Source of the DNA: Corynebacterium genitalium ATCC 33030
Lineage (GTDB): Bacteria > Actinomycetota > Actinomycetes > Mycobacteriales > Mycobacteriaceae
Assembly (NCBI RefSeq): GCF_000143825.1
Contig: NZ_CM000961.1
Coordinates: 1,021,772-1,085,771, forward strand
Reading direction: 5' to 3'
DNA length: 64,000 nt
Part shown: piece by piece, positions 25,381 through 45,986 of the stretch
Position numbering within the stretch: the first letter of the stretch is position 1
How the letters are laid out: the number at the start of each line of letters is the position of its first letter
Translations under genes and position numbers: made by a program
The notes under the pieces: generated by a model
The model's input: the letters and a program-made list of their open reading frames with translations, nothing else
What the model was told of the DNA's origin: nothing
Database searches by the model: none

Positions 25381-25419
25381 GACCCCAGAGCTTGCTTGAG
25401 GCCCGAAAGGGCTGATGGG

Positions 25420-25460
25420 AGGCCCGGACCCGCAGGTTTCTGCAGGTCCGGGCCTTTTTT
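25420..25460 (+). terminator. Island-borne terminator for nrdF
   Basis: AGGCCCGGACC at 25420-25430 pairs with GGTCCGGGCCT at 25445-25455, with an inner GCAG/CTGC helix and a T6 tail. It lies inside the integrated DNA and would replace the native nrdF terminator displaced to 45618. Confidence 0.9.
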
Positions 25461-25518
25461 CGTGCGTCCATCCGAAGGACAGAGGAGAGCACAGATGAAC
25501 ATCAGTATCCGTTCGGTA

Positions 25519-25705: not shown

Positions 25706-25745
25706 ACGGTCCGCGTGAGTCCATTCGCGGCACCTGGAGGGCACG

Positions 25746-28509: not shown

Positions 28510-29112
28510 ATGACCGAGGACCTGGGCATCCGCACCTACCGCGACAATGACCTCGAGTCACTGGTCGAGCTGGGCCTGCGGGCGTGGCAGCCGGTGTTCG
28601 AGTCATGGCGCGAGATTCTCGGAGACCGCCTCTACGACCTTGCCTACCCCGACTGGCGATCGAAGCAGGCCTCGCAAATCCGTCGGACGTGCCTCGATAG
28701 CGCGGCGAGAACACTCGTGGCCGAGATCGGCGGGCTCGTCGCGGGCTTTGCCGTCGTCACGGTGCAGGCTGACCGACCGCTCGGGACGGCGACGGGAGAG
28801 GTCGAGATGATCGCCGTGCACCCCGCCGCCCAGCGCAGCGGGGCAGGGCGACGGCTGATGGAGGAGGCTCTGGAGATAATGCGCGGGGCCGGTTGTGCGC
28901 TGGCGCGGATCGGCACCGGGGGCGATGAGGGCCACGCCCCGGCACGCTCGCTCTACGAGTCGTGCAATGAAAAGTGCACCTCCTTCTCCAAGGAGGTCAC
29001 TGATGGCTACGAACACGAGCGAGACGAGGCACCGTCCCGGGCCGAACGCACGGCCTGGCCGCAGTCGCCGATCTGTCGTGTACCCAGCGTTCGCACGGAC
29101 CGGTCCCGATGA
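28510..29112 (+). pseudogene. GNAT acetyltransferase with replaced C-terminus
   Basis: Residues 1-150 form a GNAT fold: GIRTYRDNDLESLVEL at the start, the beta-4/5 region GEVEMIAVHP and the acetyl-CoA loop [16 protein letters not shown], then RSLYESC where the last two strands normally begin. After this point (about 28966) the sequence no longer resembles a GNAT and runs for some 50 residues into the start of the serine recombinase gene. I infer that integration of the recombinase element cut off the 3' end. The full frame stops at 29112. Confidence 0.72.
28978..28997 (+). promoter_or_regulatory. Hairpin that buries the recombinase ribosome binding site
   Basis: ACCTCCTT (28978-28985) and AAGGAGGT (28990-28997) form a perfect 8-bp stem with a 4-base loop. 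The second arm is the complete Shine-Dalgarno sequence of the serine recombinase, 5 bases before its ATG. In RNA this would hide the site. Confidence 0.65.
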
Positions 29113-31615: not shown

Positions 31616-33488
31616 CACCGGGCCTGGACCGCCCACCACGGGAAGGACTCGGTGATCGGTCTCGCACCGTCAGCGACCGCGGCCGAAGTCCTCGCGGAAT
31701 CGCTCGGGATACAGGCGGAGAACGTGCCGAAGCTCCTCTACGAACACGACGAGGGCAGGTGGGATCTGCGGGCCGGGCAGTTGGTGATCGTCGACGAGGC
31801 TTCCCTCGCCGGCACCCTGACCCTGGACCGCCTCGCCACGCATGCCGCCGAGGTCGGAGCGAAGATCGTGCTGGTCGGCGACTGGGCACAGCTGTCCTCG
31901 GTGGAAACGGGCGGAGCGTTCGGGATGCTCGTACGCGCCCGCCGGCGTGCCCCGGAGCTGCACACCGTGCGCCGGTTCGTCCACGACTGGGAGAAAGCCG
32001 CCTCCCGAGACCTCCGACACGGCAAACGAGCGGTGCTCGACACGTACGAGGACGAGCAGCGGCTGCATGACGGGGATCTCGAGACGATGCTCGATGCCGT
32101 CTACACCGCCTGGCAGCACGACCGCGATCAGGGAGTCTCCACGCTCATGCTCGCCGGAAACGCGGAGATGGTCGCTGAGCTCAACCAGCGTGCCCGCGCC
32201 GACCTCATCACCGCCGGCCGCGTGCAGGAGGCCGGGGCGGCGTTGCACGACGGCACCACTGCCGGAGTCGGTGACCTCGTCGTCACCCGCCGCAACGAAC
32301 GCCGCCTCACGACGGGCAAGTCGTGAGTGAAGAACGGCGACCGCTGGCACGTGGTTTCCCATCGTAAGGATGGGGCGCTGGTGGTGCGACGGCTCGGCAA
32401 AGGCGACACCCCGCGCGGGCGACGACTCGTGCTGCCCGCGAAGTATGTGCGGGAGCATCTCGAGCTCGGCTACGCGTCCACGGTCCATCGGGCCCAGGGC
32501 TCGACCGTGGACACCGCGCACACCCTCGTCGACCCCGACACCGCCTCCCGCGAACTGCTCTACGTCGGCCTTACCCGCGGCATGCACGAGAACCACGCCT
32601 ACGTCATCCAGCCCGACCCGCACGAGGTCGAACCCCACCTCGACCCGCCCGAGGAACTCACCCGCGTCGAGCAGCTCGCACGGGTACTCGCCCGCAGCGA
32701 CGCCGACCTCTCCGCCACCGAAACCCGCCAGGTCGAGGTCGACAAGCGCGCCTCCCTTGCGACACTTCTGGACGAGTATGACCTCCTCGCCCGCGAAGCT
32801 CAGACCGAACGGTGGGAAGCCCTCATCGACATCGCACCGTTCTCCACCGGTGAGATCGGGGACGAGGTGTTCACCAGCCCGTACTACGAGTACCTCGAAG
32901 CCGCCCTCGCCCGGCATGAGGCCTCCGGCCACGACGTCACCGCGGCTTTGACTGCGCTCGCCCCGCAGATCCCGCCGGCCGATGAGGACACGGACCCGGC
33001 CGCCGAGCTCGCCGCGTGGCTCGATCGCGCCACACTGAACCAGTCCACCCGTCGCGCCGCGAACCGGCGCCGCGAACCGGCGCCGCGTCGCCGGTCTCAT
33101 CCCGACACCGGCCGAACCTATCTCGGACGACATGCGCGCCGCGCTCGCGGAGCGGCGGGAGCTCATCGAGTCCGCGGCGGGACGGCTGCTCCATCATGCG
33201 ATCAGGGAGGGCGAGCCGTAGATCAAGCGACTCGGCACACCGGGCAAGGACACTCGGTCCCGAAATCTGTGGACGAGGCACGCCACGACGGTGGCCTTGT
33301 ATCGGCACCGCTACGGCATCGCTGATCCGAAGCCTCTGGGAGAGGCCAAGAGGATCGCGTCGGCCCAGCAAGCTGTCGAGTACCGGTATGCCTTCGCTGC
33401 GCTCCGCAGAGCCCAGGCGAAGGAAACACCTTCCAACGTACGACCATCGCACAGCATTTCCAGGGAAGGCCCGGGTCGCGGCCTATAG
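31616..33488 (+). pseudogene. MobF/TraA-type conjugative relaxase-helicase remnant
   Basis: The C-terminal helicase half of an actinobacterial TraA/MobF relaxase. Recognisable parts: SVIGLAPSATAAEVLAESLG, Walker B-like QLVIVDEASLAG, LVGDWAQLSSVETGGAFG, the UvrD-like VHRAQGSTVDTAH and LYVGLTRGMHENHAYV. The relaxase domain and Walker A are missing upstream of 31616. Three further lesions break it: TGA at 32324 where TGG would give TGKSWVKNGDRW, a 13-bp tandem duplication at 33055-33080 that shifts the frame, and TAG at 33219 where TGG would give EPWIKRLG. Removing 13 bp puts all parts in one frame to the stop at 33486. Conjugative transfer by this gene is therefore lost. Confidence 0.88.
33055..33080 (+). 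repeat. 13-bp tandem duplication in the relaxase remnant
   Basis: CGCCGCGAACCGG is repeated twice head to tail (33055-33067 and 33068-33080), followed by a third partial copy CGCCGCG. The 13-base length shifts the reading frame; the downstream frame resumes as GLIPTPAEPISDDMRAAL. Confidence 0.85.
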
Positions 33489-34025
33489 CGGCGCATGCTA
33501 GGTCTTGGGCGTCGCTGCGTCCCAGCTACGTCGTTTCGTCAGATGCCAAGAGCCGCACGAGGGACATTCGTAGATGCGCAGCGGTCCGGCATACCGCGAT
33601 CGACGCAGCACCACGCGCGCATCACGAGCTCCAAGGTAGCGAGGCCTGGCGCGACACGATCGCGACGCCGTGGCGCGACCGAATCCACCACGAGTTCGTC
33701 AACCCACCACGACTCATGCTCAAGCGACTCCTGTGACCATCTGACAGCCCGATGAACATACCCGTGTCGAGCAGCTCGTACGGATGCCCAATACCGGCAC
33801 TCGGCGGCTGCCCTCCGCCGGATGCTCACCGTCCGACCGCGAACCCAGACCCGATGCACGACGAGATACTAGCCAGAACGATCAGGGGTTTCTCAGTAGC
33901 TCCTGGAGCCCCTATGCCGCGAGGCGTGGCACGATTCCAGAGAAGGGGGACTGTGTTGTGAGATGGTATAAATACACGCCTTTCGCAAGATGGATTGGGG
34001 ACGAGGCCAAAGTTCCTTGACAACT
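33489..34025. other. Region without a supported gene
   Basis: No convincing coding frame is seen in these 537 bases. One patch, 33760-33783, differs at only 2 of 24 positions from 32663-32686 in the relaxase remnant (ACCCGTGTCGAGCAGCTCGT versus ACCCGCGTCGAGCAGCTCGC at the start), so the region may contain a further scrambled scrap of transfer genes. It separates the relaxase remnant from the 3' end of the cyclitol operon. Confidence 0.4.
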
Positions 34026-35117
34026 TCAAGACATGCCGATCACGAGGCGAATCACCAGCTCGCCGTCCACCACTCGGCTTCCGGACGACAGCATGCTATT
34101 GAGGGTTTCGACGCCCTCCCGAAGCGGTTGATCATGGGTAATCAGGCGATCAGCCCTATCGCCAAAATCAGGTTCTTCAAGCAGGATCGCTGCCGCTTCC
34201 AGTCTCCTATTGGGCACACCACGGTTTCCAGTGACGACTGTTGAACGCTCTGCACTGGAGAAGCTGACGCGCGCCGGGGGCCAAGGGCCACCCGTGTTCG
34301 CGGCGCGCACGCCGTGTAGATCGATACCAGGGAGTTCCGGGCTGATAGTCCCGGGGGCGAGTCCGCCCACGAGATGTGCGGCGACGACACGCGTGCCGAG
34401 CGTCCGTGCCGCCTCGGTCAATCCCAGTGCTGTTCCGGCCCGATGCGTCGCTGACAGCATTGCGATGCGTTTCCCTAGGACAGGTTCGAGTTCCGCGACT
34501 GTACGGCCGTTGGTAACGCGCGGCTCGTGGGCCTGCGTCCACTCGCGACCGAGTTCTGACCGGTGCACCATGCCGATCGACACTTGCTCTCCAAGCACGC
34601 GAGGTGCGGCGATTGCTGCAAGATTTCCTATGAGCCCGTCTCCCACAATGAGAAGGCTGTCGGGATCTTCGAGTCGGAGACACTCCAGAGCGTACGTAAC
34701 CACCGCTAGTGGCTCGATAAGGGTTCCGCGCGCTGCGGGAATACACGGCGAAACGTGGGAAACTAAACCGCCAGACACGGCCGTCCGAGGTATGCGAACC
34801 CGCTGCTGAAGGAGTCCGTTGATGTTGTGACCCAGCAGGAAGTCCGGGTCGGACGGGTGAGTAGGGTTGATGGTGACGCGGTCGCCCACCGCGAACCCGA
34901 CTGCTCCCTCACCGACTTCAACGACCTTTACAAGCCCTTCGTGACCGACAACCGGCGCCGGATCGTCACGCAGACCTCGAAGGATCTGTATGTCGGTCCC
35001 ACAAATGCTGACTTTCTCCGGAGCGACAATAAGTTCCCCGATACCAGCTATCCCTTCATGCAGGTGCTCGAGTGCGCATTGAGTACCACGCCGGACGATG
35101 GCCTTGTGCTTCATCAT
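34026..35117 (-). CDS. Zinc-type alcohol dehydrogenase-like protein (cyclitol operon, last gene)
   Basis: A 363-residue medium-chain dehydrogenase. The catalytic zinc region is visible as SICGTDIQ and GHEGLVKVVEVGEG, the nucleotide-binding part as LLIVGDGLIGNLAAIA (G-x-G-x-x-G), and EPLAVVTYAL precedes it. The structural-zinc cysteine lobe is absent. It is the last of ten same-strand genes, 19 bases after the ROK kinase gene. In C7-cyclitol pathways such enzymes oxidise or reduce ring hydroxyls (AcbL- or ValN-like roles), which is the likely job here by inference. The start could be either of two adjacent ATGs. Confidence 0.8.
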   Translation of the reverse strand: MMKHKAIVRRGTQCALEHLHEGIAGIGELIVAPEKVSICGTDIQILRGLRDDPAPVVGHEGLVKVVEVGEGAVGFAVGDRVTINPTHPSDPDFLLGHNINGLLQQRVRIPRTAVSGGLVSHVSPCIPAARGTLIEPLAVVTYALECLRLEDPDSLLIVGDGLIGNLAAIAAPRVLGEQVSIGMVHRSELGREWTQAHEPRVTNGRTVAELEPVLGKRIAMLSATHRAGTALGLTEAARTLGTRVVAAHLVGGLAPGTISPELPGIDLHGVRAANTGGPWPPARVSFSSAERSTVVTGNRGVPNRRLEAAAILLEEPDFGDRADRLITHDQPLREGVETLNSMLSSGSRVVDGELVIRLVIGMS

Positions 35118-35136
35118 GGACCTAAAGACCTTTCTC

Positions 35137-36081
35137 CTACTTCACGTTTTCGAGGTATCCCTGCGCCATTAGAGCCGCGCCAGTCTCAGGGCAGACTTGG
35201 TCGGAGGAAACTAAATGCAGTCTTGGGCCTTCGTTGGACTGGCTGTCGACATACGACTGAGCTGCGGAAAGCTGGCGATAGAGTTCATGCTTATAGCGAG
35301 TTCCAATTCCGGAGGGAACTCCACCACCGATTCCAATCAGATCAATATGAGGCTGAAGGACGCATGCCGTGCGAATGAGATTCGCGATCGGTTCGATGAT
35401 GACTCTGAGCAGTCTTTCGTCCATCTCGGTCGGCGCACCATCCTCTGACGCCCTCGGCTGGTTGTAGCTGTCGATGCCAAGTTTTTCGGCGACGTGCGGT
35501 ATTGCAGGGCCGGCAGCTATTGCGGCGATGTGTCCTACTCCTCCGCATTCACAGGTTAGTCCGCGGACTGCTTCAATCGCAGTTGAGGTAGCGGGCAGAT
35601 GTCCGACTTCGCCCTGGAGACCTTCTGCGTTGACGTGGATGCGCCGTGAGGGGAGATGCGCGGTTCGGAGCGCGATGCCGCTGCTGATTGTCACGTACAT
35701 TACCTGTCGGTCGGCCGGCCGGGCGTACATCTTCGTGAAGTGTGCAAGGCCGGCCGTGACGTCGTTGGTGACTGTCCATCGCACATCGGGACGCTGTCGT
35801 TCGAGGAGCCGACGGAAGGGGATGTCGTGGCGTCCCGTTCCCCAAAGGGGTCCAGAGCCGTAGGCGATATCGGTTTCCGGATCGTAGGCTGCACCGAGTG
35901 AAACATGCGCATCGGTGTCCGTCGGCACGCGTCCTGCGAGGAGGAGAACCAGCTCCCGGGCGAGCACATCGCTGGACTTCTGAGGATGACGAAGTTTGCT
36001 GGGAGTGGCAACCCGCTCGACGTTGGAACCGCTGCGGAACCGGGTCCAGGTCCCTCCGATGTCAACAAGGAAGGCGTTCAC
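35137..36081 (-). CDS. ROK-family kinase (probable C7-cyclitol kinase)
   Basis: A 314-residue ROK/glucokinase-type protein: phosphate-1 motif DIGGTWTRF at residues 7-15, GEVGHLP in the substrate region, a degenerate ROK zinc motif CECGGVGH (final Cys replaced by His), and IGIGGGVPSG as the adenosine motif. No DNA-binding domain precedes it, so it is a kinase, not a ROK repressor. The glucokinase-like enzymes ValC and AcbM phosphorylate valiolone-type cyclitols at C7; membership of this operon suggests the same. The start is GTG 36081, overlapping the HAD gene by 4 bases (GTGA). Confidence 0.82.
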   Translation of the reverse strand: MNAFLVDIGGTWTRFRSGSNVERVATPSKLRHPQKSSDVLARELVLLLAGRVPTDTDAHVSLGAAYDPETDIAYGSGPLWGTGRHDIPFRRLLERQRPDVRWTVTNDVTAGLAHFTKMYARPADRQVMYVTISSGIALRTAHLPSRRIHVNAEGLQGEVGHLPATSTAIEAVRGLTCECGGVGHIAAIAAGPAIPHVAEKLGIDSYNQPRASEDGAPTEMDERLLRVIIEPIANLIRTACVLQPHIDLIGIGGGVPSGIGTRYKHELYRQLSAAQSYVDSQSNEGPRLHLVSSDQVCPETGAALMAQGYLENVK

Positions 36082-36731
36082 GGGATCTCGATTCGAATGC
36101 GGTCGCCCGCTACTTCGATGGTGACGCCTTGGTAGTCTCCAATGGAGCAAACGATTGTCCCTTCGTAGACGGTCATGTGTTCAGCGATTGCGACCGTCTT
36201 GATTTCCGCTTCCGTCAGTGCCTGGAATCCTGCGGTCGAATCTTCGAAGCCCAGGCAGTGTCGAGGGTCGACTGCGAGGTGGCCCGCGGCCGCAAGGAAC
36301 CCTTCCGGTGATGGTTTCCCGTCGACCACGTCCTCCGCACAGATCGTGACCGCGGGGGTAGGCAGCCCCGCGCCGCAGAGCCGGGCTTCCATCACCATTC
36401 TTGGGGCCGCAGTCACGACTGCCCATCGATTCTTGGGAAGCATACGCGTGAGGGCTTCTGCTCCTGGTACCGGCATGATCGTCTCGGCTGCGGCGATCTC
36501 GCTCCGGCGGATGATGTCGAGCTCGTTGGCGGCCTGGGCGTCGGTCATCGTCGGCATGACGGCAGCTAGGATGTCGCGGCCGCGCCGCCCGGGTAACAGC
36601 GTGCGGACCTTTTCGAAGTCGAGGCCGTGCCGGTCTGCGAACCCGTGCCACGCCGCCTCGATAGACGGCGTGGAGAGGACAAGTGTGTCGTCGAGATCGA
36701 ACAGTAGCGCGGAGCATTCCAAATGGGTCAT
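36078..36731 (-). CDS. HAD-family phosphatase (cyclitol operon)
   Basis: A 217-residue HAD subfamily IA hydrolase: nucleophile motif LLFDLDDTL with Asp 12, motif II VVTAAP, motif III Lys in DGKPSPEGFL and motif IV GFEDSTAGFQA. The helical cap lies between about residues 18 and 85. It resembles sugar-phosphate phosphatases and could remove a phosphate from a cyclitol phosphate intermediate, as AcbJ-type HAD enzymes may do in acarbose clusters. ATG 36731 lies 5 bases after the VOC gene. Confidence 0.82.
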   Translation of the reverse strand: MTHLECSALLFDLDDTLVLSTPSIEAAWHGFADRHGLDFEKVRTLLPGRRGRDILAAVMPTMTDAQAANELDIIRRSEIAAAETIMPVPGAEALTRMLPKNRWAVVTAAPRMVMEARLCGAGLPTPAVTICAEDVVDGKPSPEGFLAAAGHLAVDPRHCLGFEDSTAGFQALTEAEIKTVAIAEHMTVYEGTIVCSIGDYQGVTIEVAGDRIRIEIP

Positions 36732-36736
36732 CGGAG

Positions 36737-37507
36737 CTACTTCGCTTTCACGTCTGCGATGTCTGACGCCCACGGGGTGCCGGAGAGCACGAGTGAGTGT
36801 CCACCGACCTCATCGATGCCGCGAGGTGACTCTTGTTCGCCCACCCCGTGTTCGAAGAGTTCGATGTTGAGGCCGCTTGCGACGACCATGGCCATTGTCG
36901 ACGTACAGGCCACGTCGATGCCGAACTGACGGCGGGTGAACGCCTCGTCCACCGTCAGTGAGGTGCCGAGCACGTACTGTGCACCAGCCTTCTCCGTTAG
37001 GTTGGCGATGCTGGAGTCGAGATTCGCGACGCTGTATCCGGCATGGTCGAGACCGCGGATACCGGGCAGCGCCCCGGCTCTCTGTCGTGGGTGCTCGTGG
37101 TACAGGCGTGCGTTGTTCTCACGGGTGTAGGCGGGCGGGTCCGGCCACTCTTGAAGCTCGAAGAGGCTTCCCCAGGGCGACCGGAAGTAGATCCACTTAT
37201 TGCCTTGGATCGGACCGTCTGGTGTCTCGATGATGTCGCCGAGAGCCTCGGTGCCGGGGAGGCCATTGATTCGGTCCACGACCTCGTTGATCCCGTCGAC
37301 ACGGAAGCACAGGTGGAGCGTTCCCAGATCGGTGATCGACGGTGGCGTTCTGCGTGCTGCGCGGCAGGCCGTGAGCCTGACTTCCACGCCCGGATCGAAC
37401 GCAAAGACGGGTCCACTACCTGTCGGCCCTCCGACAATGGAGGCCAACCACCGAGCGGCGGCGTCGACGTCGGGGACGGCCAGCGTGATCTGTTGCGGTT
37501 GGCTCAT
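36737..37507 (-). CDS. VOC-superfamily epimerase (CetB/ValD-like)
   Basis: A 256-residue protein with two vicinal-oxygen-chelate modules (about 1-130 and 148-256). Probable metal ligands lie in LGTLHLCFRV, SLFELQEWPD, GLDHAGYSV and NIELFEHG. In cetoniacytone and validamycin pathways VOC proteins (CetB, ValD) epimerise 2-epi-5-epi-valiolone to 5-epi-valiolone. Its location in an operon headed by a sedoheptulose-7-phosphate cyclase makes the same reaction the best prediction. ATG 37507 overlaps the upstream gene by 4 bases (ATGA). Confidence 0.83.
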   Translation of the reverse strand: MSQPQQITLAVPDVDAAARWLASIVGGPTGSGPVFAFDPGVEVRLTACRAARRTPPSITDLGTLHLCFRVDGINEVVDRINGLPGTEALGDIIETPDGPIQGNKWIYFRSPWGSLFELQEWPDPPAYTRENNARLYHEHPRQRAGALPGIRGLDHAGYSVANLDSSIANLTEKAGAQYVLGTSLTVDEAFTRRQFGIDVACTSTMAMVVASGLNIELFEHGVGEQESPRGIDEVGGHSLVLSGTPWASDIADVKAK

Positions 37508-38403
37508 GGGATCAGCAGCACCTTTCCGCGGAGGCCGCCACGTTCGAAATCGCTATGAGCGGCGGCAGCTTGCGAGAGCGGATAAGTCCGTCCGACAGGC
37601 ACAGAAAGTGTGCCCTGTGCCAGCTGATCTGCGATCTCGGCGAGCTGTCGACCGTTTTCCTGGACGTAGCTCTTCGTCGGGGTGATTCCGCGCTCGGGCT
37701 GGGGCTGGGTGTTGTCGGCGATGGAGATGAACTGGCCGTCATCGCGCACGCTCGCGATGGCTTCTGCGATTCCGGCGGTGTCGATGACCGCGTCGAATGT
37801 CGCGTCGGGGAGGCTGTTCGTGGAGTCGTAGACTGCCTCGGTGCCGAGGGCTGTGAGGTCAGTGGTGTCGCTGAGACGAGCCAGTCCGTCCACCCGATGT
37901 CCGGCCTGCAGTAGCCACTGCACGGCGACTCGTCCGACCGCTCCGGCCGCCCCCGTGACGAGAACGCGTGCCTTATCAGGCAGATCAAGCTTGCTCAACA
38001 TCTGCGCGGCCGTAAGTACGGTCAGGGGCGCAGCGGCGGCCTGCTGCATGCTGACCCCGGTGGGGACGGGTGCGAACAGCTCCTGGGGTGCGCTCACGTA
38101 CTCGGCGTAGGTTCCCTGGTCCCGCGCTGGTTGCGCGACCATCCCCATGACCTGGTCTCCTTCACGGAACCGTGACACGTCGGAGCCGACAGCATCGACA
38201 GTTCCGGCCACATCCCAGCCGAGAATTACAGGGAAGCTCAGGTCCATGTTCAGGAACCCGGATCGGGTCTTCACGTCGACGGGGTTGACGGCTGCCGCTC
38301 CTACCTTCACCCGAATGTCGCCAGGCCCGACGTCTGGTGTCGCAATGTCAATGATCTGGATCTCCGAGGCGGATCCTGTGTGGTGGATTGTTGCTGCTTT
38401 CAT
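37504..38403 (-). CDS. NADP-dependent quinone-oxidoreductase-type dehydrogenase
   Basis: A 299-residue zinc-free MDR protein of the QOR family: GWDVAGTVDAVGSDV, then RVLVTGAAGAVGRVAVQWL as the NADP-binding A-x-x-G-x-x-G stretch. It lacks metal ligands. Members reduce enones or quinones; in this operon it could reduce or form a ring double bond, which is inference. Its start at 38403 lies inside the 3' end of the SDR gene (56-base overlap), and its stop overlaps the VOC gene start. Confidence 0.82.
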   Translation of the reverse strand: MKAATIHHTGSASEIQIIDIATPDVGPGDIRVKVGAAAVNPVDVKTRSGFLNMDLSFPVILGWDVAGTVDAVGSDVSRFREGDQVMGMVAQPARDQGTYAEYVSAPQELFAPVPTGVSMQQAAAAPLTVLTAAQMLSKLDLPDKARVLVTGAAGAVGRVAVQWLLQAGHRVDGLARLSDTTDLTALGTEAVYDSTNSLPDATFDAVIDTAGIAEAIASVRDDGQFISIADNTQPQPERGITPTKSYVQENGRQLAEIADQLAQGTLSVPVGRTYPLSQAAAAHSDFERGGLRGKVLLIP

Positions 38404-39214
38404 GAGTGTGTCCTTTCGTGGAGGTGATCGGTGTGGATGCGGCCTTGGCGTTTTCTTCGGCGGCGGTGAGCATGAGGCCCCCGTCGACGTAGAGTGTCGC
38501 TCCCGTCATGTACGAGGCCTCGGGGCTGAGGAGCCAGGCGACTGCGTTGGCGATCTCGGCCGGTTGGCCGGCTCGCCCCATCGGAATTGCCGGACGTTCG
38601 ACGATTTCCCCATCCGAATCTTGCGGGGTTCCGTTCATCGGGGTCGCTGTTTCTCCGGGCGCCACCAAGTTCAGGCGGATGCCATGTTCGGCGAACTCGA
38701 GAGCCAGAGCACGAGACGCTACTGCCAGCCCGCCCTTGGAAGCGCAGTACAGCGTTCCTCCCGTTATCGGGATCTGGTCGTGTACCGATGTGACGGTGAC
38801 GATAGAACCGGTGACGTCGTTGGCCACGAAATAGCATGCTGCTGCCGAGGACAGCAGGAGGGGCGAGGAGAGGTTGACGGCTATGACCTCTTCCAGGCGA
38901 GCGTAGTCGAGTGCCAGCGCTGGCGATCGGTCATTAACCCCTGCGTTATTGACGAGGTGGTGAACGGGTCCGAATTCCGCTGTGAGCTCGTCAAATCGAC
39001 TCGGAATGTTCCTCGGGTCGGTCAGGTCGATGTGTACGGGAACTGCCTCACCCACGTTGCTGGTATTCAGGGTGTTGCAGAGCTGCTCCGCCCGTGAGCG
39101 TCCGGAATGGTAGCCGACCAGCACTCGGGCGCCGTCGTGGACGAGTCGCCGGGCGATGGCGCTTCCGATTCCGCTGCTTGCTCCTGTGACAAGGGCAGTA
39201 CGCTGCTCATCCAA
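38348..39214 (-). CDS. Short-chain dehydrogenase/reductase (cyclitol operon)
   Basis: A 288-residue classical SDR: cofactor motif TGASSGIGSAIA near residue 10, LVNNAGV, and the catalytic Ser/Tyr/Lys set in VTVTSVHDQI and YCASKGG, with the C-terminal YMTGATLYVDGG. It has a tail of about 30 residues past the usual end, translated from sequence overlapping the next gene. It probably interconverts a ring hydroxyl and ketone. ATG 39214 overlaps the preceding alcohol dehydrogenase gene by 8 bases. Confidence 0.85.
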   Translation of the reverse strand: MDEQRTALVTGASSGIGSAIARRLVHDGARVLVGYHSGRSRAEQLCNTLNTSNVGEAVPVHIDLTDPRNIPSRFDELTAEFGPVHHLVNNAGVNDRSPALALDYARLEEVIAVNLSSPLLLSSAAACYFVANDVTGSIVTVTSVHDQIPITGGTLYCASKGGLAVASRALALEFAEHGIRLNLVAPGETATPMNGTPQDSDGEIVERPAIPMGRAGQPAEIANAVAWLLSPEASYMTGATLYVDGGLMLTAAEENAKAASTPITSTKGHTHESSNNPPHRIRLGDPDH

Positions 39215-40220
39215 TCTTCAGCACCACCTTCGGCCGTTCGCGAGGCTGCTCGAGCCTTTCGAACGCCGCGCTGACCTCGGTGAGCGGATAGACGCGGTCG
39301 ACAAGCTGGTCGATCTGCTGTGGATGCTGGCGGATGAACTCGGCTGCCGCGGGATAGTGGTCGACACCGTGCCGGACGCCAAGGATGCTCTGTCCGTTGA
39401 GTGCGAGTTCGGAGACGTTGAGCCGCGTGTCTGCGGACGGGACGCCGATGAATACGGCGCAGCCGCCGACTTTGAGGCATGTCAGTGCCTCTTCTGTTGC
39501 GCTCTGGGCTCCTGAGCATTCCCACACCGCGTCGTAGAGCTCGCCACCGGTACTGGGCAGACCGGTGACGGTCTTGATGCCCAGGTGTGCGAGGTGAGCC
39601 GGCGAGGTCGGATCGAGGACGACAACCTCGACCGGGTAGCTTGCGAGCACGAGCGCGGCGAGACTACCCATGGTTCCTCCGCCGATGACCAGGATGCGGT
39701 TGCCCGGTGAGGGGCACAGCTTCGCGATCCCCTCGAGGACAGTGACTAGTGGTTCGACGAGGACGTGGCCGGGGCGTGGTTCGGCGGAATCCGTGTCGTC
39801 GAGAACCGTGAGTGCGGGTGCGGGCATCGTCAGGAGTTCTGCCGCGGCACCGGCGTGGTCGTACAGGCCGACCTCCCTGACACGGAGGCAGAGATTCTTG
39901 TGGCCGGATCGGCATGTGGTACAGGTGTGGCAGGAGAGCATGGTGCTACCGGTGACGACCGTTCCGCGTTTGAGGTGGTCCGCGTTTGGGCCGGTGGGAG
40001 GCTCTTCGATGGTGCCGACCCACTCGTGTCCGAAGTGGTGCGGGTAGGTGGTCTGCCCGGCGCGGAGGTACTTCGATGTCCCGTGGTAGAGCTCGAGATC
40101 GGAACCGCAGAGCCCCACGTAGGCGATCCGTATCAGCGCTACATCTGTGCCCGCCGGCACAGCGTCTGGAATTTCGCGGGGTACGGCGGCTCGCGTGCCA
40201 GTGAGGAGAGCTGCCTTCAT
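39207..40220 (-). CDS. Zinc-dependent alcohol dehydrogenase (sorbitol-dehydrogenase-like)
   Basis: A 337-residue zinc MDR enzyme. Catalytic zinc ligands are visible in GLCGSDLELYHG and FGHEWVGTIEE; the structural zinc cysteines are CHTCTTCRSGHKNLC; the nucleotide loop is ILVIGGGTMGSLAAL. This polyol-dehydrogenase type fits oxidation of a cyclitol hydroxyl. It is the second zinc-type dehydrogenase of the operon, but unlike the one at 34.0-35.1 kb it keeps both zinc sites. Overlaps the MFS gene by 4 bases. Confidence 0.86.
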   Translation of the reverse strand: MKAALLTGTRAAVPREIPDAVPAGTDVALIRIAYVGLCGSDLELYHGTSKYLRAGQTTYPHHFGHEWVGTIEEPPTGPNADHLKRGTVVTGSTMLSCHTCTTCRSGHKNLCLRVREVGLYDHAGAAAELLTMPAPALTVLDDTDSAEPRPGHVLVEPLVTVLEGIAKLCPSPGNRILVIGGGTMGSLAALVLASYPVEVVVLDPTSPAHLAHLGIKTVTGLPSTGGELYDAVWECSGAQSATEEALTCLKVGGCAVFIGVPSADTRLNVSELALNGQSILGVRHGVDHYPAAAEFIRQHPQQIDQLVDRVYPLTEVSAAFERLEQPRERPKVVLKIG

Positions 40221-41431
40221 TCTGCGCTCCCGTCACGTACGCGAGAGGTGCTCGCACGGTTGGTGATCCACAGAAGTGCCGCAGCTGCGAGGGCGAGGAC
40301 GGCGCCGATGGCTGGGAGGACGCCAATCCCGAATCCGAAAGACAGGGCGGTGGAGCCAATCCAGGCTCCCGCGGCGTTCGCGAGCTGGAATCCTGCGATG
40401 TTCACCGTGGTGGCAAGATTCGGGGCATTGCTTGCCGCGCCGATGAGCTTCGACGTCAGCGGGGGAATGATCGAGAACCCAGCTGCCCCGACCACGAACA
40501 TCCACGGTGCGGCGAACCAGGTGTGGTTGCCGAAGAGGAAAAGTAGGAGAAGAGAAAGAGCGAGCGAGCCCAGTGCGATGTACAGCGTTGCGTTCATGTT
40601 CCGGTCTGAGAAGTAGCCGCCGAGCATGTTGCCAGCGATAGACCCCACGCCGAAGACGAAGAGGAGAACGGTGATGACATTGGGGCTGAATCCGGCATGC
40701 TGCCCGAGGTACGGTGCGATGAAGGTGAAGAGCACAAAAAGCCCGGACTGGCTCAGCATGGTTAGGCCAAGAGCCTTGAGGACCTCGCCCTGGCCGAAGA
40801 CCCGTACTTCTGCCGAGATGCTGCCCGAGGTGCGCTCTGGTGCTCGTCGCGTCGTCAGCACAAGAGCGACGGTGACGAGGGTCTGGATGCCCGCGATGAT
40901 GAGGAACGAGGACCGCCATCCGTACTGGTTGCCAACCAGTGTTCCCAGGGGGACGCCCAGTACCGTCGCGAGATTGAGCCCGAGTGTGATGCGGGAGATG
41001 ACGCGGCCCTGGAATTCGGGTTCTACGAGTGTGGTTGCGAGAACGAGACAGAGTGCGAAGAACGTCGCGTGCGGCAGTGCGGTCATCACCCGAGCGATGA
41101 CCAGTACGGGGAAGTTCGGTGCGACGGCGGTCAATATGTTGCCGACGATGAACAATGCCATGAGCACGAGGACCAGGGGGATGCGTCGGACACGGGAGGT
41201 GATGATCGTCAGAAGCGGCCCGCCGATGACGACGGTGAGGGCGTAGACAGTCACGAGGAGTCCGGCGGTCGCTTCCGTGACGGCGACATCGCTGGAGATC
41301 TGGGGCAGAACACCGGCCACGAGGTATTCGACGGTTCCGACCCCGAATACTCCCAGGAGCATCCAGGTGATGGCGAGGTTGATATTGACGGGGGTCTTGC
41401 TCGTGGTGGACTCGCTGGTTTGTGAGTTCAT
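40217..41431 (-). CDS. MFS exporter of the cyclitol operon
   Basis: A 404-residue DHA1-type transporter with 12 predicted helices; GTVEYLVAGVLPQIS in helix 1 and SRVRRIPLVL in loop 2-3 match the AraJ/chloramphenicol-exporter group. Its position between biosynthetic genes and its 4-base overlap with the dehydrogenase gene suggest it exports the product. ATG 41431 is chosen because the frame upstream runs under the KAS III-like gene and lacks membrane-protein character. Confidence 0.87.
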   Translation of the reverse strand: MNSQTSESTTSKTPVNINLAITWMLLGVFGVGTVEYLVAGVLPQISSDVAVTEATAGLLVTVYALTVVIGGPLLTIITSRVRRIPLVLVLMALFIVGNILTAVAPNFPVLVIARVMTALPHATFFALCLVLATTLVEPEFQGRVISRITLGLNLATVLGVPLGTLVGNQYGWRSSFLIIAGIQTLVTVALVLTTRRAPERTSGSISAEVRVFGQGEVLKALGLTMLSQSGLFVLFTFIAPYLGQHAGFSPNVITVLLFVFGVGSIAGNMLGGYFSDRNMNATLYIALGSLALSLLLLFLFGNHTWFAAPWMFVVGAAGFSIIPPLTSKLIGAASNAPNLATTVNIAGFQLANAAGAWIGSTALSFGFGIGVLPAIGAVLALAAAALLWITNRASTSRVRDGSAE

Positions 41432-41439
41432 GTGTTCTC

Positions 41440-42459
41440 CTATCCGTGGTAGCGAAGAACTGCGCAGCCCCAGGTGAAACCTGCGCCAATTCCGATGAGG
41501 GCGACGTGGTCGCCGGGTGTGAGTGTGGATTCGCTCCGCAGATGCTGCAGGCCGAGGAGGGGGTCGGCTGCGCCGGTGTGTCCGATCTGCGAACCGAACC
41601 GGCTGGTCGTGTCCGTGGGTGCGAGGCCGAGGGGTTCGAGACACTGTCTGCGTAGCAGCGTCTCGCCGAAGTGAGGGACTGACCATGCACGAAGAGCGGC
41701 GAGGTCGATGCCAGCGTCGTCGAGGGCCTGGTCCACAGATCGTTGGAGTCCTTCGGCGTTTGCCTTCCAGAACGATTCGAGGCCATAGGTGCGTGCGTAG
41801 TTGGCTGACCTGGCGCGCATGCTGAAGGGGAGCGGTTCTCGGTACTCCGGAAGATCTAGCGGAGCGTTACCGCGATGCATCTGTTCGAAGCGTGAGTTCT
41901 GTGTCAGCGCGGTCGACAGCACCTGGAACGGTCCGGCGGATCGTGTAAGAACGATGGCAGCACCAGCATCGCCGTATGCTAGGCCTGAGTCTGTGGCCCA
42001 CCGGTCAAACATGGGCAGACGCCACACATCTGATGCGGTGAGTATGCCGTAGCCTTCATTATCGAGGCGCCTCGCGAGCAGGTCGATGCCGACGATGGAG
42101 CCGGCGCACGTGTTGCGGATCTCGATAGCGAGAGTCTCGGGGAAGCCGAGCTCATTGCCGATGTAGGCGCCCCCATTCCATGCCTCGAGGCCGGTGTGGA
42201 GGGCGACTGCGTGAACGATGAGCTCAGGGCTCGCTTCTGTTGGGTGCTCCGCGCCGTACTCTTCCAGTGCAACGCGGCCTGCACGAACCGCCATCACCGG
42301 AGCGGACTCCTCGGGCTGTCCCACGGCGGCGCTGACTTGTCGCGATTTCTCCAGTTCTTCATGGGTTAGACGCCCGGCTGTGACAGCGTCGGCGGCTGTT
42401 TCCACAGTGCTGGGCAGGTAGCTTCCGAGGCCTCCGATGTAGAGGCTGTCCCACCTCAT
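41440..42459 (-). CDS. KAS III-like acyltransferase/ketosynthase
   Basis: A 339-residue thiolase-fold protein of the FabH (KAS III) family: active Cys 118 in RNTCAGSIVG, His 263 in SVPHFGE, and GHTGAADPLLGL (293-304) where FabH has G-N-T-x-A-A. The FabH Asn is thus His here, with Asp 299 nearby, a pattern I associate with KAS III relatives that transfer acyl groups to hydroxyls or amines (such as CerJ), rather than chain-initiating FabH. PtmR of the pactamycin pathway shows a KAS III-like enzyme acylating a cyclitol. ATG 42459 overlaps the cyclase gene by 4 bases (ATGA). Confidence 0.83.
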   Translation of the reverse strand: MRWDSLYIGGLGSYLPSTVETAADAVTAGRLTHEELEKSRQVSAAVGQPEESAPVMAVRAGRVALEEYGAEHPTEASPELIVHAVALHTGLEAWNGGAYIGNELGFPETLAIEIRNTCAGSIVGIDLLARRLDNEGYGILTASDVWRLPMFDRWATDSGLAYGDAGAAIVLTRSAGPFQVLSTALTQNSRFEQMHRGNAPLDLPEYREPLPFSMRARSANYARTYGLESFWKANAEGLQRSVDQALDDAGIDLAALRAWSVPHFGETLLRRQCLEPLGLAPTDTTSRFGSQIGHTGAADPLLGLQHLRSESTLTPGDHVALIGIGAGFTWGCAVLRYHG

Positions 42460-43709
42460 GCCTTCAGTGCCAGGTCGTGCTTGGGCTCCAATGATGCGGC
42501 GATGTCTCCTGCTTGCATCTCGGCGAGCGTTCGCAGGGTGTCCAGAGCGTCTGCGACTTCGTCCGCGGACACGTCGTTGGCGAACTCGTGGTCGCCGATA
42601 CCCACGGGCAGCGGAATGCGCTGCTTTCCACCGCGGTGGCGCACTGTATCGGCCAGTGCTGCGTCGAGGACCCCAGGTTCCTCGAGTGAGCTGTTCCAAA
42701 TGGGTAGGTCAAGATCCTGCATCGTGGAAAGCACATGGGCCAGCTCGTGGCGCGTCATGCGTCCGCGGTGGAAGGAAAGGGCGCTGGACAGTGCCATGTC
42801 GATGCAGACGGCTTCCCCGTGGAGAAGCTCAGGCAGTGCCTTCATCTCCACGGTCGGGCTGAAGGTGTGGCCATAATCGACGCACCGCTCCAGGTTTGCT
42901 TCCCACAGGTTCGGCTGGAGTTCTTCAAGCATCAGGTGAATCGAGGCTCCGATGATGTCGTCTGCCGCGTTTGCGAGGGCAGGGGTGCTGCCGACGAATC
43001 CATCGTCGAGGATGGCGCGTCCATAGCTGTCCAGGAGCGACATCAGGCGGCGGGACTTGATGAGCGCGATCTTGAGGATCTCTGCCATACCGTTAGACAG
43101 GTGCCGTCGATTGAGTGAGCGCAGGAAGGAACGATCCACGTAGGTCACAGCCGGAGCGGCGTAACTACCGATCTTGTTCTTTCCCGTGCCGAAGTTCACT
43201 CCCGTTTTCACACCGACGCCGGCGTCCACGAGGCCGATCAATGTGGTCGGAATACGGATGTAGGGCGTGCTCCGGCGGTAGATGCTGGCGGCGAAGCCCA
43301 CGATGTCGAGCAGTACCCCTCCGCCGATTGCGATGACGGGCTCGCTGCGGCGGTCAATTCCAGCCTCTGCCATGGCGCGGATCACCGAGTCGACGGAATC
43401 CCAGTTCTTGACCATCTCATGGGCCTCGAGGACGTGGTACGTGGCCTGCACGCCGTGGTGGGTGAAGTAGCCGCGGATCTGGCTTCCGTAGAGCTGTTCG
43501 ACGGTTTCGTCGATGACGATGAGCCGTCGCGAGCGCTCGGCGGCGGCGGGGATCGCACCTGCCGTGGCCAGCGTGGAGTTCGTGACGTCGAAGAGCGCTC
43601 GTGCGGCGACTACGTCGTACGTGACCTCGTGGACTGCTCGCACGGTCCAGCGGTCGACGCCGTCTCGGGTGGTCGATCGCGACAGTCCTTCTGGGTGACG
43701 TTCTGCCAT
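42456..43709 (-). CDS. Sedoheptulose-7-phosphate cyclase (2-epi-5-epi-valiolone synthase-like)
   Basis: A 417-residue member of the dehydroquinate-synthase fold. IGGGVLLDIVGFAAS is the NAD site; metal ligands are Glu 210 (NGMAEILK), His 281 (DYGHTFSPTVE) and His 297 (LLHGEAV). Residues 146-176 (RSTPYIRIPTT, then GLVDAGVGVKTGVN) are of the sedoheptulose-7-phosphate cyclase type; true dehydroquinate synthases read closer to MVDSSVGGKTGIN. Such enzymes (ValA, AcbC, CetA) turn sedoheptulose 7-phosphate into 2-epi-5-epi-valiolone. GGAG 7 bases upstream supports ATG 43709. First gene of the operon. EEVS and 2-epi-valiolone synthase activities cannot be separated by eye. Confidence 0.88.
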   Translation of the reverse strand: MAERHPEGLSRSTTRDGVDRWTVRAVHEVTYDVVAARALFDVTNSTLATAGAIPAAAERSRRLIVIDETVEQLYGSQIRGYFTHHGVQATYHVLEAHEMVKNWDSVDSVIRAMAEAGIDRRSEPVIAIGGGVLLDIVGFAASIYRRSTPYIRIPTTLIGLVDAGVGVKTGVNFGTGKNKIGSYAAPAVTYVDRSFLRSLNRRHLSNGMAEILKIALIKSRRLMSLLDSYGRAILDDGFVGSTPALANAADDIIGASIHLMLEELQPNLWEANLERCVDYGHTFSPTVEMKALPELLHGEAVCIDMALSSALSFHRGRMTRHELAHVLSTMQDLDLPIWNSSLEEPGVLDAALADTVRHRGGKQRIPLPVGIGDHEFANDVSADEVADALDTLRTLAEMQAGDIAASLEPKHDLALKA

Positions 43710-43859
43710 TTGGGTCTCCAAGTCTGTTGATGTTCGAGCTACGCCGCATGCCAGGGACATGGGGTGCTCAGGCGCCGTGGCACGACGACGCCGACAGTTG
43801 TCTGCTCAGGGGGCGGGGGTCCGGTCGGCGCAGGAACCTCCCGCCTACACGAGGCTAAC

Positions 43860-43876
43860 ATTATTCGTGGAATGAT
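43860..43876. promoter_or_regulatory. Imperfect palindrome between cyclitol operon and TetR gene
   Basis: ATTATTC-GTG-GAATGAT matches its reverse complement at 6 of 7 arm positions. It is the clearest dyad in the 276-base divergent intergenic region and is AT-rich in GC-rich surroundings, so it may be the operator of the TetR-family regulator. Confidence 0.5.
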
Positions 43877-43985
43877 CGCAACACGAGTGTGACGATGCTG
43901 ACCCCGAGGCGAGCATCACATGCGTCTCCAAGGAAGCGGCGTATGATTGTGTCGCTCGATGACATGCGATGGGAGGCGGTCCCTT

Positions 43986-44597
43986 ATGGCCGGTGTGCGC
44001 GGCCAAGGTAGACGGTTCGACACCCAGGCGGCGCTAGATACTGCAATGGAAGTCTTCTGGCGACACGGATATGAAGGCACCTCTATTGCCGATTTGACGC
44101 GAGCGATCGGGATTACGGCGTCGAGTCTTTATGCAGCCTTTGACGGCAAGCGCCAGCTCTTTGATCAGGTTGTAGAGCGCTACTTGAACACCAAGGGGCG
44201 ATTCACTTCACTTGCCCTTGAGGAGGAGAAGAACTCTCTCTCTCTGATTCACCGACTGCTTTTTGAGGCAGCGAATGAGTATGCCGATAGGAGCGGGCCG
44301 GGGGGGTGCCTAATCGTCAGCGCTGCAACCTGTGTAACGGATGCGAACCGCGATGTCGAAGAGAAACTCGAGGCGCATCGCCATTCAAACATCAGGCGCA
44401 TTGAGGGTGTCTTGCGAGCCGATCTCGAGGCAGGGCAAATTTCCGAAGCAGTTGATCCTGTGGCCGTCGCCAGCTTCGTCGGGACCGTATTGCAAGGCAT
44501 GGCCCAGCGAGGTCGCGATGGAGCTTCTGTAGATGAATTGCGCTCCACGGCTGAGATGACCTTCGCTCAAGTTGAGCAAACCTTGCAAAGTCCCTAA
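43986..44597 (+). CDS. TetR-family transcriptional regulator of the cyclitol cluster
   Basis: A 203-residue regulator: the N-terminal helix-turn-helix is clear in ALDTAMEVFWRHGYEGTSIADLTRAIGITASSLYAAFDGK-like sequence (residues 13-52), followed by an all-helical ligand-binding domain. The region around GPGGCLIVSAATCVTDAN resembles the QacR/AcrR-like group that pairs with oxidoreductases. GGGAGG lies 9 bases before ATG 43986. It is divergent from the ten-gene operon, so it is probably its repressor, responding to the product or an intermediate. Confidence 0.88.
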   Translation: MAGVRGQGRRFDTQAALDTAMEVFWRHGYEGTSIADLTRAIGITASSLYAAFDGKRQLFDQVVERYLNTKGRFTSLALEEEKNSLSLIHRLLFEAANEYADRSGPGGCLIVSAATCVTDANRDVEEKLEAHRHSNIRRIEGVLRADLEAGQISEAVDPVAVASFVGTVLQGMAQRGRDGASVDELRSTAEMTFAQVEQTLQSP

Positions 44598-44629
44598 ACC
44601 TCCCGTGGGTCGGCCTGCTCAAGAACCCA

Positions 44630-44876
44630 CGTTGCTCAGCCCTCCCTCCGCGGAACAGTGTGTCGCTATTGCCGACTCAAGCCGATGCGGACTCTTTGCA
44701 TCCCCGAAGACGACGCAACCTGACGGAGCGATGTCAAAGAAGACCCCGGCACGGAGGTAGCCGTCTGGTGCGGGCTTCCCACGATGCACGGTTTCAGCCG
44801 CGAGGACGTGCGGTCGCGGCAGGCCAGCGGCATCAGGGCGGGCTCGTGCGACGCTTTCCGGTTGGGAAGAGAGCAC
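44630..44876 (-). pseudogene. HAD hydrolase fragment
   Basis: An internal piece of a HAD subfamily IA phosphatase: AGLPRPHVLAAETV, the motif III lysine in RGKPAPDGYL, and motif IV CVVFGDA. The nucleophile motif and the cap are missing upstream and the sequence after GDA is unrelated. It resembles the HAD gene of the cyclitol operon but is too short to be functional. Confidence 0.6.
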
Positions 44877-44879
44877 GAT

Positions 44880-45177
44880 CGTCAGCGCTAAACCCGGTCA
44901 GCTCAATTTCGACTACCATCGACTCCGTCGTATCGCGAAGATCATCTACCGACAGAGAGGCATAAAGCTGAGCGACACTCGCCCCGAGGGCCAGATCGAT
45001 GACACGAAGCAGCGACGACTTGCCGACATCGTTGGCGCCAACCAGGACGAGATGGGCGCGGATCTTGATCTCGAGGTCCTCGAGGCGCCGATGGTTTGCG
45101 ACCTTCAGTCGTGAAAGCTTCAATCGCGCACTCTCTTTCAGCGCTAGATCCGGATGACGGCTCCTGATCGCCATCAT
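44880..45177 (-). pseudogene. N-terminal fragment of an OLD/AAA-type ATPase
   Basis: Reading from ATG 45177, the frame shows LSRLKVANHRRLEDLEIKI and a Walker A GANDVGKSSLLRVIDLAL, the start of an OLD-family (overcoming lysogenisation defect) or SMC-like ATPase. After about 90 residues it runs into the HAD fragment and stops. Only the N-terminal lobe remains; such genes often belong to phage-defence modules. Confidence 0.6.
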
Positions 45178-45577
45178 AAGACGCTGCCTGCGCCCTATTT
45201 GCCCACGATACCCGCTTCCTCCAACTTTGACCCGCGTCGGTCCCCAGTCTTGTCCACGATAGTGCCGTCAAACGCAAGATGTGGCATCGCCAGTGCTACC
45301 CCAGGCGGTGGGACCATCCACCGACCTCCCCGGGTGAGCCACTGATCCAGAGGGAGAGCGCGCGACGCACTGCGTGTAGCTCACATAAGTTATCGCGCAG
45401 ATGGGGCCGTCCGGCGGTAAACTGGGCATGTGCGACGGCAACGATCTGGTTGGCGAGAGCGGCTTCGATCGTGAGTGGCACGTAGATGGCACGAGCGGTC
45501 ATCGGAGCTGGAGGGGCCGCAGGATTTATCGCCTCTCACCAGGGAGGACGGCGACTGGGCGCTCTGAGAAGGCAAGA
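45178..45577. other. Right flank of the island without a supported gene
   Basis: No confident gene is seen. On the minus strand 45502-45296 a 68-codon frame (AIYVPLTIEAALANQIVAVA in its N-terminal part) looks somewhat protein-like but is not recognised and has no clear start signal. With the two fragments at 44.6-45.2 kb, this fits an eroded island end. Confidence 0.35.
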
Positions 45578-45589
45578 ACTGGGACTTCT
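45578..45589 (+). repeat. Right attachment core (attR), copy of the nrdF 3' end
   Basis: ACTGGGACTTCT, identical to 25367-25378. In the nrdF frame the flanking sequence reads AAG AAC TGG GAC TTC TAA, so the copy still ends in W-D-F-stop. The TAA and what follows are presumably the original chromosome sequence downstream of nrdF. Confidence 0.78.
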
Positions 45590-45617
45590 AACCCGCCGAT
45601 GACCCGTGGGTCCCATG

Positions 45618-45658
45618 CCCCGACCGATCCGTTTCCCGGGCCGGTCGGGGTATTCTTT
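45618..45658 (+). terminator. Probable original nrdF terminator, now stranded
   Basis: CCCCGACCG at 45618-45626 pairs perfectly with CGGTCGGGG at 45642-45650, followed by TATTCTTT. It lies 29 bases after attR and no gene of the island reads into it, which fits a native nrdF terminator cut off by the insertion. Confidence 0.75.
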
Positions 45659-45986
45659 GGCTTACCCTATTCCGGGGTTGTACCGCCCCCGTTCTGGGTT
45701 GAAATCCAAGCGTTGCCGGGCGTGCATTGTACGAGTGCACGGTCGCTTCCGGCCGGTTCGGGGCTGTGAGCTGGGTGAGTGGTTGCTTCCGAAATGGGCA
45801 GCGCGAAGACGCTGCCGGTCATCTGGAATTTCACTGGACCGCTGGTTAAGATGAAGCGGTATTAGCCGCGTCCTATCTATGACCTCTGCGAGCTGATTTT
45901 CGTCAGCTCCGGGGAAGCTTGGCTGGGGCGCCCCCAGGAAATCCCACTGGGGGTGGAGCGGCTGAAGTTAATTCAGGAGGATACGT
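45659..45986 (+). promoter_or_regulatory. ctaD promoter and leader region
   Basis: The 328 gene-free bases before ctaD should hold its promoter. The leader can form a hairpin GAGCTGA/TCAGCTC (45890-45909) and a second CTGGGG-CG-CCCCCAG (45923-45937). A strong site CAGGAGG lies 9 bases before the ATG. No specific regulator site was recognised. Confidence 0.45.

Follow-up and report, generated by a model that had tools for sequence, protein, structure and literature searches.

A horizontally acquired, predicted C7-cyclitol operon of Corynebacterium genitalium without the F420-type gene found in related clusters

We analyzed a 64,000-nucleotide stretch of the Corynebacterium genitalium ATCC 33030 genome (contig NZ_CM000961.1; hereafter the window, to whose numbering all positions refer unless a locus is named) that contains a candidate gene cluster for C7-cyclitol biosynthesis. 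According to a list of open reading frames (ORFs), it comprises a ten-gene operon on the minus strand (34026–43760) and a divergent TetR gene on the plus strand (43947–44597). A reading made from the DNA letters without database searches, here termed the sequence-only reading, had described the same eleven genes, and each was recovered at its place and strand. Pfam agrees with the families named there for all ten operon genes and the TetR gene, the call for the VOC protein being weak. The close packing of the genes was likewise borne out, with neighbors overlapping by 1–56 bases or lying 5–19 bases apart for the starts used here. As the gene order recurs in 13 other genomes, the operon is not a chance arrangement. 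Three features escaped the sequence-only reading: the acyltransferase branch to which the KAS III-like protein belongs, the conservation of the cluster in Rhodococcus and Nocardia relatives and the absence of an F420-dependent gene.

In transcription order, genes 1–5 carry the Pfam domains DHQ_synthase/DHQS_C, ACP_syn_III_C, MFS_1, ADH_N/ADH_zinc_N and adh_short_C2, followed in genes 6–10 by ADH_N/ADH_zinc_N_2, Glyoxalase_4 (weak), HAD hydrolase, ROK and ADH_N. The cyclase Cyc (42456–43760) and the KAS III-like protein (41440–42450), discussed below, precede a predicted, Cmx/CmrA-like MFS exporter (40217–41434; PF07690 134 bits; NF033135 266 bits, below the cut-off of 400). Next come zADH1, a zinc dehydrogenase of the polyol/inosose type (39207–40220; PF08240 and PF00107; NF041097 110 bits, below the cut-off of 450) with conserved Cys/His/Glu and four-Cys positions, and a 288-residue SDR reductase with a presumed AcbN-like role (38348–39214; PF13561 189.6 bits). 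The C-terminal end of the latter is in a different frame from the Nesterenkonia copy introduced below; its Ser143, Tyr156 and Lys160 are intact. A QOR-type MDR oxidoreductase (37504–38403; PF08240 and PF13602; TIGR02824 119.9 bits, below its cut-off) is followed by the two-module VOC protein, a candidate 2-epimerase (36737–37507; PF13669 28.9 bits, a weak match just above the cut-off of 27). Its AlphaFold model has a pLDDT of 91.9, and in an alignment of 26 sequences His65, Glu117 and His155 are invariant and Glu216 nearly so. The operon ends with a predicted HAD-IA sugar phosphatase (36078–36731; PF00702 63 bits; Asp12 and Asp14 conserved), a ROK kinase with a presumed AcbM/ValC-type role (35137–36078; PF00480 35.7 bits; Asp106 conserved) and ADH2, an AcbL-like cyclitol MDR (34026–35117; PF08240 43.5 bits). 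ADH2 shares 43% identity with P0127, named 2-epi-valiolone-7-phosphate 1-reductase by one source, and 42–43% with P0130 of Actinoplanes utahensis. The TetR-family protein has TetR_N and TetR_C_13 domains (PF00440 53.8 bits and PF16925 38.4 bits, scanned from 43965) and is 94% identical to its Nesterenkonia counterpart and 44–54% identical to those of 12 other clusters. A putative divergent promoter/operator region of 186 bases (43761–43946) separates it from the operon; no strong palindrome was found in this region, and positions 43755–43990 show 94% mean column identity to Nesterenkonia alkaliphila.

Cyc matched the solved structure of ValA (4P53) with 396.8 bits over residues 28–410, DDGS (5TPR) with 240.5 bits and AroB proteins with at most 144 bits. 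The metal ligands given in the sequence-only reading as residues 210, 281 and 297, numbered from Met18, are Glu227, His298 and His314 of the 434-residue ORF. In a tree of 49 rows, built without aminoDHQS and EVS (2-epi-valiolone synthase) references, Cyc pairs with the Nesterenkonia copy (support 100/100), and both fall into a group of 12 rows (98/99) together with the tree's other full-cluster loci, L004, L056, L057 and L058 (L and G numbers are our designations for loci and genomes). Membership of the DHQS clade, which would have contradicted the earlier proposal of a sedoheptulose 7-phosphate cyclase, was tested; the split from AroB (100/100) leaves Cyc on the same side as ValA, and the proposal stands. 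The fork placing DDGS outside is weaker (89/77), the long DDGS and AroB branches being flagged as unsure. Kean and colleagues reportedly defined in 2014 an active-site fingerprint of 14 positions. That 14 such positions distinguish sugar-phosphate cyclase classes is also stated in the part of PMC4426668 available to us. At two positions that differ between ValA (Asp, His) and DDGS (Ala, Thr), Cyc has the ValA residues, D295 and H375. By sequence, then, Cyc is EEVS-type, that is, of the type forming 2-epi-5-epi-valiolone: it is nearest to ValA in both bits and tree and has the Glu/His/His ligands. As the tree holds no EVS reference, its assignment to EEVS rather than EVS rests on nearness to ValA. 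The 2.35-Mb, single-contig genome contains another DHQ_synthase gene (genome positions 1617691–1618023), so Cyc is not the only member of that family in the cell.

The KAS III-like protein matched 9Z38, ChlB3, DpsC, 7VYU and CerJ with 113–142 bits in a single-sequence search and FabH types with at most 48 bits. A profile of 19 relatives widened the distance (DpsC 211, ChlB3 199 and CerJ 172 bits; FabH types at most about 80). These scores place the protein in the DpsC/ChlB3/CerJ branch and not with FabH. It has a Cys-His-Asp triad of Cys115, His291 and Asp296. The available part of PMC9573744 gives the ChlB3 triad as Cys113, His296 and Asp301, reports that CerJ moves malonyl onto a sugar hydroxyl and describes relatives other than ChlB3 and CerJ as condensing enzymes, crediting DpsC with a Claisen condensation. 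Across the 12 other full clusters (L058 and L081–L091), the triad is kept and position 260 is Asn, whereas the window protein keeps a His260 that aligns with a His of DpsC. L062, L009 and L011 have Ser as the nucleophile. The KAS III gene directly follows Cyc in all 13 other full clusters, Nesterenkonia included. Branch and triad together lead us to predict an acylated C7 carbasugar, with the KAS III-like enzyme presumably transferring an acyl group to the cyclitol.

The operon belongs to an island between nrdF and ctaD (25381–45972) that carries a tyrosine recombinase (integrase; 25746–27014, plus strand; PF00589 48 bits), a large serine recombinase (28895–30658, plus strand; PF00239, PF07508 and PF13408), an Lsr2-type gene and the helicase part of a TrwC-type gene in two ORFs (31652–33325, plus strand; AAA_30 and UvrD_C_2). 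The last is 66% identical at the nucleotide level, over 614 columns, to a TrwC gene at the N. alkaliphila locus L003; no relaxase domain was found in the scanned ORFs of this helicase remnant. In the window, nrdF and ctaD lie 20.6 kb apart. An nrdF match was found in 16 same-genus genomes, the window's own among them; in 14 of these, ctaD falls inside the adjoining 1.5 kb examined, and in the one other genome, G173, the distance is 1.6 kb and the stretch contains no relative of an operon gene. The cyclase occurred in one of 242 same-genus genomes, that of the window itself. A compact site in relatives and a cluster rare in the genus uphold the earlier claim of an island. Moreover, 33945–44707 is common to N. 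alkaliphila (91.3% identity over 10764 columns with L003 9057–19817), and this match stops just beyond the operon and TetR gene. The CtaD proteins of the two genomes are 67% identical, against 91% identity for the cluster DNA. On this comparative evidence, the operon is horizontally acquired and situated on inserted DNA.

The neighborhood of the Nesterenkonia operon includes an uninterrupted TrwC-type gene of 1,196 amino acids and transposase genes. Transfer of operon and relaxase into both hosts as one block was considered and is not supported, as the TrwC-type gene stands on opposite sides of the operon and the two copies are only 66% alike. A tRNA-Ala gene (9996–10069), followed by a solute-binding protein gene, was rejected as an attachment site because 9901–10300 has no exact copy of at least 15 bases elsewhere in the window. 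Between 25381–26000 and 44601–46000, the longest exact repeat measures 11 bases, and we therefore name no attachment site. Of the traits expected in an integrative conjugative element (a relaxase, transfer genes and attachment repeats), the island thus far offers an integrase and the helicase remnant as partial indications. Other observations concern the surroundings. The island-borne Lsr2-type protein (27479–27823) is a candidate silencer of foreign DNA, and a short ORF of the AAA_15 ATPase type (44833–45177), located on the ctaD side of the operon and before ctaD itself, is perhaps a fragment. At the nrdF–ctaD site of G173 (nrdF 91%), about 1.6 kb without a window match (L116 18155–19763) may point to an insertion hotspot. 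A Nesterenkonia locus (L065 13192–16569) has genes for a lantibiotic dehydratase C-terminal domain and a nitroreductase-type protein near the operon, perhaps a modified-peptide cluster.

To chart the cluster in other genomes, we used searches of different reach. A cyclase scan of a species-genome collection, which reaches close relatives only, returned 39 loci, among them two with relatives of all 11 genes: L003 and Nocardia sp. CNY236 (L004). An ADH2 search of 401 family genomes (at most five candidates scored per genome) gave 14 matches, namely the window's own genome, 11 at 51–55% identity and two at 40–42%. All 11 intermediate matches (L081–L091, of which L089–L091 are the Nocardia loci L056, L004 and L057) have the full gene set in the same order; the two weaker ones fell outside this check. 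Together with Streptomyces locus L058, this gives 12 other genomes, of Nocardia, Rhodococcus relatives and one Streptomyces, with the same gene order and 40–69% protein identity. KAS III searches, again with at most five candidates scored per genome unless noted, matched one of 396 genomes around the order of Nesterenkonia (E 1e-55), Nesterenkonia itself; a known relative in Cryobacterium was missed or not sampled. That organism, Cryobacterium sp. M15, has relatives of KAS III (70%), VOC (59%) and ADH2 (65%). The same query matched 4 of 150 Nocardia genomes (at most 14 candidates scored) and 8 of 394 Streptomycetaceae genomes, one match exceeding 50% identity. Among the five Streptomycetaceae matches examined, the full set occurs in G1097 (L058), and L060, L061 and L063 have KAS III but no cyclase in the stretch examined. 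A plasmid collection held no near DNA match to the cluster; at the protein level, its cyclase matches (20 records) reached at most 47.6% and its KAS III matches (8 records) at most 35.3%.

Several of these loci deviate from the common architecture. The Streptomyces cyclase gene of L058 (12099–13249) is split over two frames, owing either to a mutation or to an error in the assembly. A Nocardia locus (L059 9304–12530) is a reduced remnant in which Cyc, KAS III, ROK and ADH2 are present as pieces and the HAD gene is nearly whole; it also has a 44-residue match to the LLM protein discussed below, the rest of the set not being found in the stretch examined. Streptomyces locus L062 (9505–18700) has Cyc, KAS III, MFS, zADH1, SDR, QOR and VOC, whereas relatives of HAD, ROK and ADH2 were not found in the stretch examined; an acyl carbasugar is possibly reached here by an unphosphorylated route. 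In Promicromonospora (L009 2917–20758) and Antribacter (L011 2532–19955), EEVS clusters combine a KAS III gene with a nearby one-module polyketide synthase (PKS; KS-AT-DH-KR-ACP), probably iterative, which suggests polyketide esters of C7 cyclitols. L009, the only one of the two scanned for them, also encodes a berberine-bridge-type oxidase and an AMP ligase. In Nocardia altamirensis (L005 9941–12554), the EEVS gene adjoins one for a trehalose-synthase-like glycosyltransferase, recalling validamycin-type coupling.

One gene distinguishes the version shared by Corynebacterium and Nesterenkonia. In all 12 other clusters, a gene for an LLM protein lies between VOC and HAD; 11 of these proteins are 65–72% identical to the L004 copy, and two scanned copies scored 178 and 187.5 bits against the cut-off of 166.9 for TIGR03619, an F420-dependent LLM oxidoreductase family. 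At this place, the window has a five-base junction (36732–36736), as does L003. Host cofactor genes follow the same division. Both cofG and cofD exceed their cut-offs in all 12 LLM-bearing genomes. In the window's own genome (G000), cofG and cofD fall below (19.7 and 19.1 bits); in the Nesterenkonia genome (G242), of unstated completeness, cofG has no match and cofD scores 18.8 bits, also below its cut-off. Among 14 control genomes, that of Corynebacterium glutamicum was likewise below the cut-off. Since both negative hosts carry one shared version of the cluster, they count as one event, not two. Related LLM genes of about 30% identity occur in L007, L008, L010 and L016, that of L010 exceeding the TIGR03619 cut-off. 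These loci come from the cyclase's nearest other group, and their LLM genes suggest loss of the gene here rather than gain elsewhere, although that grouping is weak (88/25). With the F420-type step absent, the product of the Corynebacterium/Nesterenkonia version may differ from that of the other hosts. As to the reason, we tentatively suggest, at somewhat less than even odds, that a previously undescribed acyl-carbasugar cluster family of Rhodococcus relatives, Nocardia and Streptomyces shed an F420-dependent reductase on entering F420-lacking hosts and thereby yielded a new, differently reduced product.

From the protein families, on which all steps are based, a pathway can be outlined. The EEVS would convert sedoheptulose 7-phosphate to 2-epi-5-epi-valiolone, which the ROK kinase would phosphorylate at O7 and the VOC protein would invert at C2. 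The AcbL-like ADH2 may then form a valienone-type enone, the SDR and/or zADH1 may reduce or oxidize ring positions and the HAD phosphatase would remove the 7-phosphate. The KAS III-like enzyme is predicted to acylate a hydroxyl, the donor probably being a CoA thioester. Export would fall to the MFS protein, and the divergent TetR is probably a product sensor. By analogy, the nearest known product type would be an acyl carbasugar such as crotonyloxymethyl trihydroxycyclohexenone (COTC), a crotonyl ester. We thus read the locus as a horizontally acquired, intact operon that makes and exports an acylated C7 carbasugar, with a probability of roughly 0.65. Several points weigh against this. Enzyme activities and product are predictions from sequence, and the VOC, ROK and HAD roles are assigned by family. 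The operon has no acyl donor gene, so the ester depends on the KAS III protein, whose His260 is also found in DpsC, a Claisen condensing enzyme according to the available part of PMC9573744. No LLM relative was detected in the window (best E 0.2) or L003 by a search confined to those stretches, and the F420 link sets one transferred version against 12 hosts.

The missing donor gene and His260 would fit an unacylated product of the valienol, streptol or gabosine type, with KAS III otherwise employed, for example in C–C bond formation; judged by family, the operon has the enzyme types needed to form valienol 7-phosphate and to remove its phosphate. We consider this unlikely, given that the 12 other full clusters have Asn at 260 and yet keep the residues equivalent to Cys115, His291 and Asp296, the acyl-transfer triad in the accessible part of PMC9573744, that Cyc and KAS III are adjacent in every other full cluster and that KAS III lies near a one-module PKS in two related clusters. 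The operon might instead feed a cyclitol unit into a larger C7N-aminocyclitol pathway with its remaining genes elsewhere in the genome. Its early genes correspond by family to acarbose genes, and partner genes were looked for among the 11 genes of the locus only; these 11 include no aminotransferase, nucleotidyltransferase or glycosyltransferase, and a dedicated exporter and regulator, with the whole unit common to Nesterenkonia, make such a division of labor very improbable.

Two further alternatives concern the cyclase and the state of the operon. Cyc could be a related sugar-phosphate cyclase of other stereochemistry, a 2-epi-valiolone synthase, as EVS was unrepresented in the tree and only two positions that discriminate ValA from DDGS were singled out; the lead of ValA over DDGS by 156 bits and the Asp and His shared with ValA render this improbable. 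The operon could also be a passenger on a decaying island and out of use, in keeping with the remnant state of the adjacent conjugation gene and the altered frame of the SDR tail. None of the 11 genes contains an internal stop in either the window or the Nesterenkonia genome, and their dN/dS values between the two range from 0.04 to 0.22, which indicates purifying selection since the copies diverged and leaves disuse extremely improbable.

Acarbose and validamycin are C7 cyclitols, and glyoxalase inhibitors have been reported among the C7 carbasugar esters. With 11 genes in about 10.8 kb, a dedicated exporter and regulator and a host genome of 2.35 Mb, the compact cluster would suit the discovery of such compounds. 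The F420 pattern also opens a testable question, whether a pathway that moves between hosts keeps or loses individual steps according to the cofactor supply of the recipient; on the tentative reading of a shed F420-dependent reductase, the pathway would have been edited to the cofactor supply of its host.

As far as searched, this mobile C7-cyclitol cluster without its F420 step is undescribed. The literature covered was mostly open access, with subscription papers largely outside, so the absence of the gene set from it is weak evidence of novelty. The set does not appear in the parts of PMC8599487 (streptol) and PMC9946207 (sub-clusters) that we could consult, the available part of the Synteruptor paper (PMC11195616) is unrelated to the cluster, and none of the cyclitol or valienone papers found involves F420. 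Among the matches listed, no paper described a biosynthetic cluster for COTC or gabosines.

The operon can be compared with several known systems. For acarbose, the available parts of PMC7081202 and PMC9200736 describe the ROK-type kinase AcbM as making the 7-phosphate, AcbO as epimerizing, AcbL as leading to valienone 7-phosphate, the SDR AcbN as leading to valienol 7-phosphate and AcbJ as the 7-phosphatase. Paired by role with these partially consulted descriptions, the operon resembles the acb cluster of Actinoplanes sp. SE50/110 in its EEVS, ROK, VOC, AcbL-like MDR, SDR and HAD genes, the AcbO and AcbJ families not having been compared. Unlike that cluster, it has no visible counterparts of the nucleotidyltransferase, aminotransferase and glycosyltransferase and adds the KAS III acyltransferase, zADH1, QOR, MFS and TetR. 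More generally, hallmarks of C7N-aminocyclitol pathways (aminotransferase, cyclitol nucleotidyltransferase and glycosyl- or pseudoglycosyltransferase) are lacking among the 11 window proteins. In the validamycin cluster, ValD is a VOC protein. Further likenesses to that cluster are the cyclase, closest to ValA 4P53, and a ROK-type kinase, as ValC is described in the consulted part of PMC9200736; unlike it, the 11 genes include no ValL-type coupling enzyme or aminotransferase. ROK, EEVS and MDR genes also stand together in an acbMCL-like operon of Actinoplanes (Acpl6249–6251, from the accessible part of PMC3364876) and at Nocardia loci L029–L031 and L033; at these Nocardia loci, unlike the window, no KAS III, VOC, SDR, HAD or MFS relative was found. 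The window KAS III resembles CerJ, ChlB3 and DpsC, its best-matching solved structures, and shares the Cys-His-Asp triad of ChlB3 and CerJ; its acceptor, unlike theirs, would be a carbasugar, and it also keeps His260, as DpsC does. The core of COTC is a gabosine. COTC and the gabosines are Streptomyces products and potential glyoxalase inhibitors, according to the available part of PMC2635666, and the predicted window product, an acyl ester of a C7 enone carbasugar, would be of the same type, a link drawn by chemistry only.

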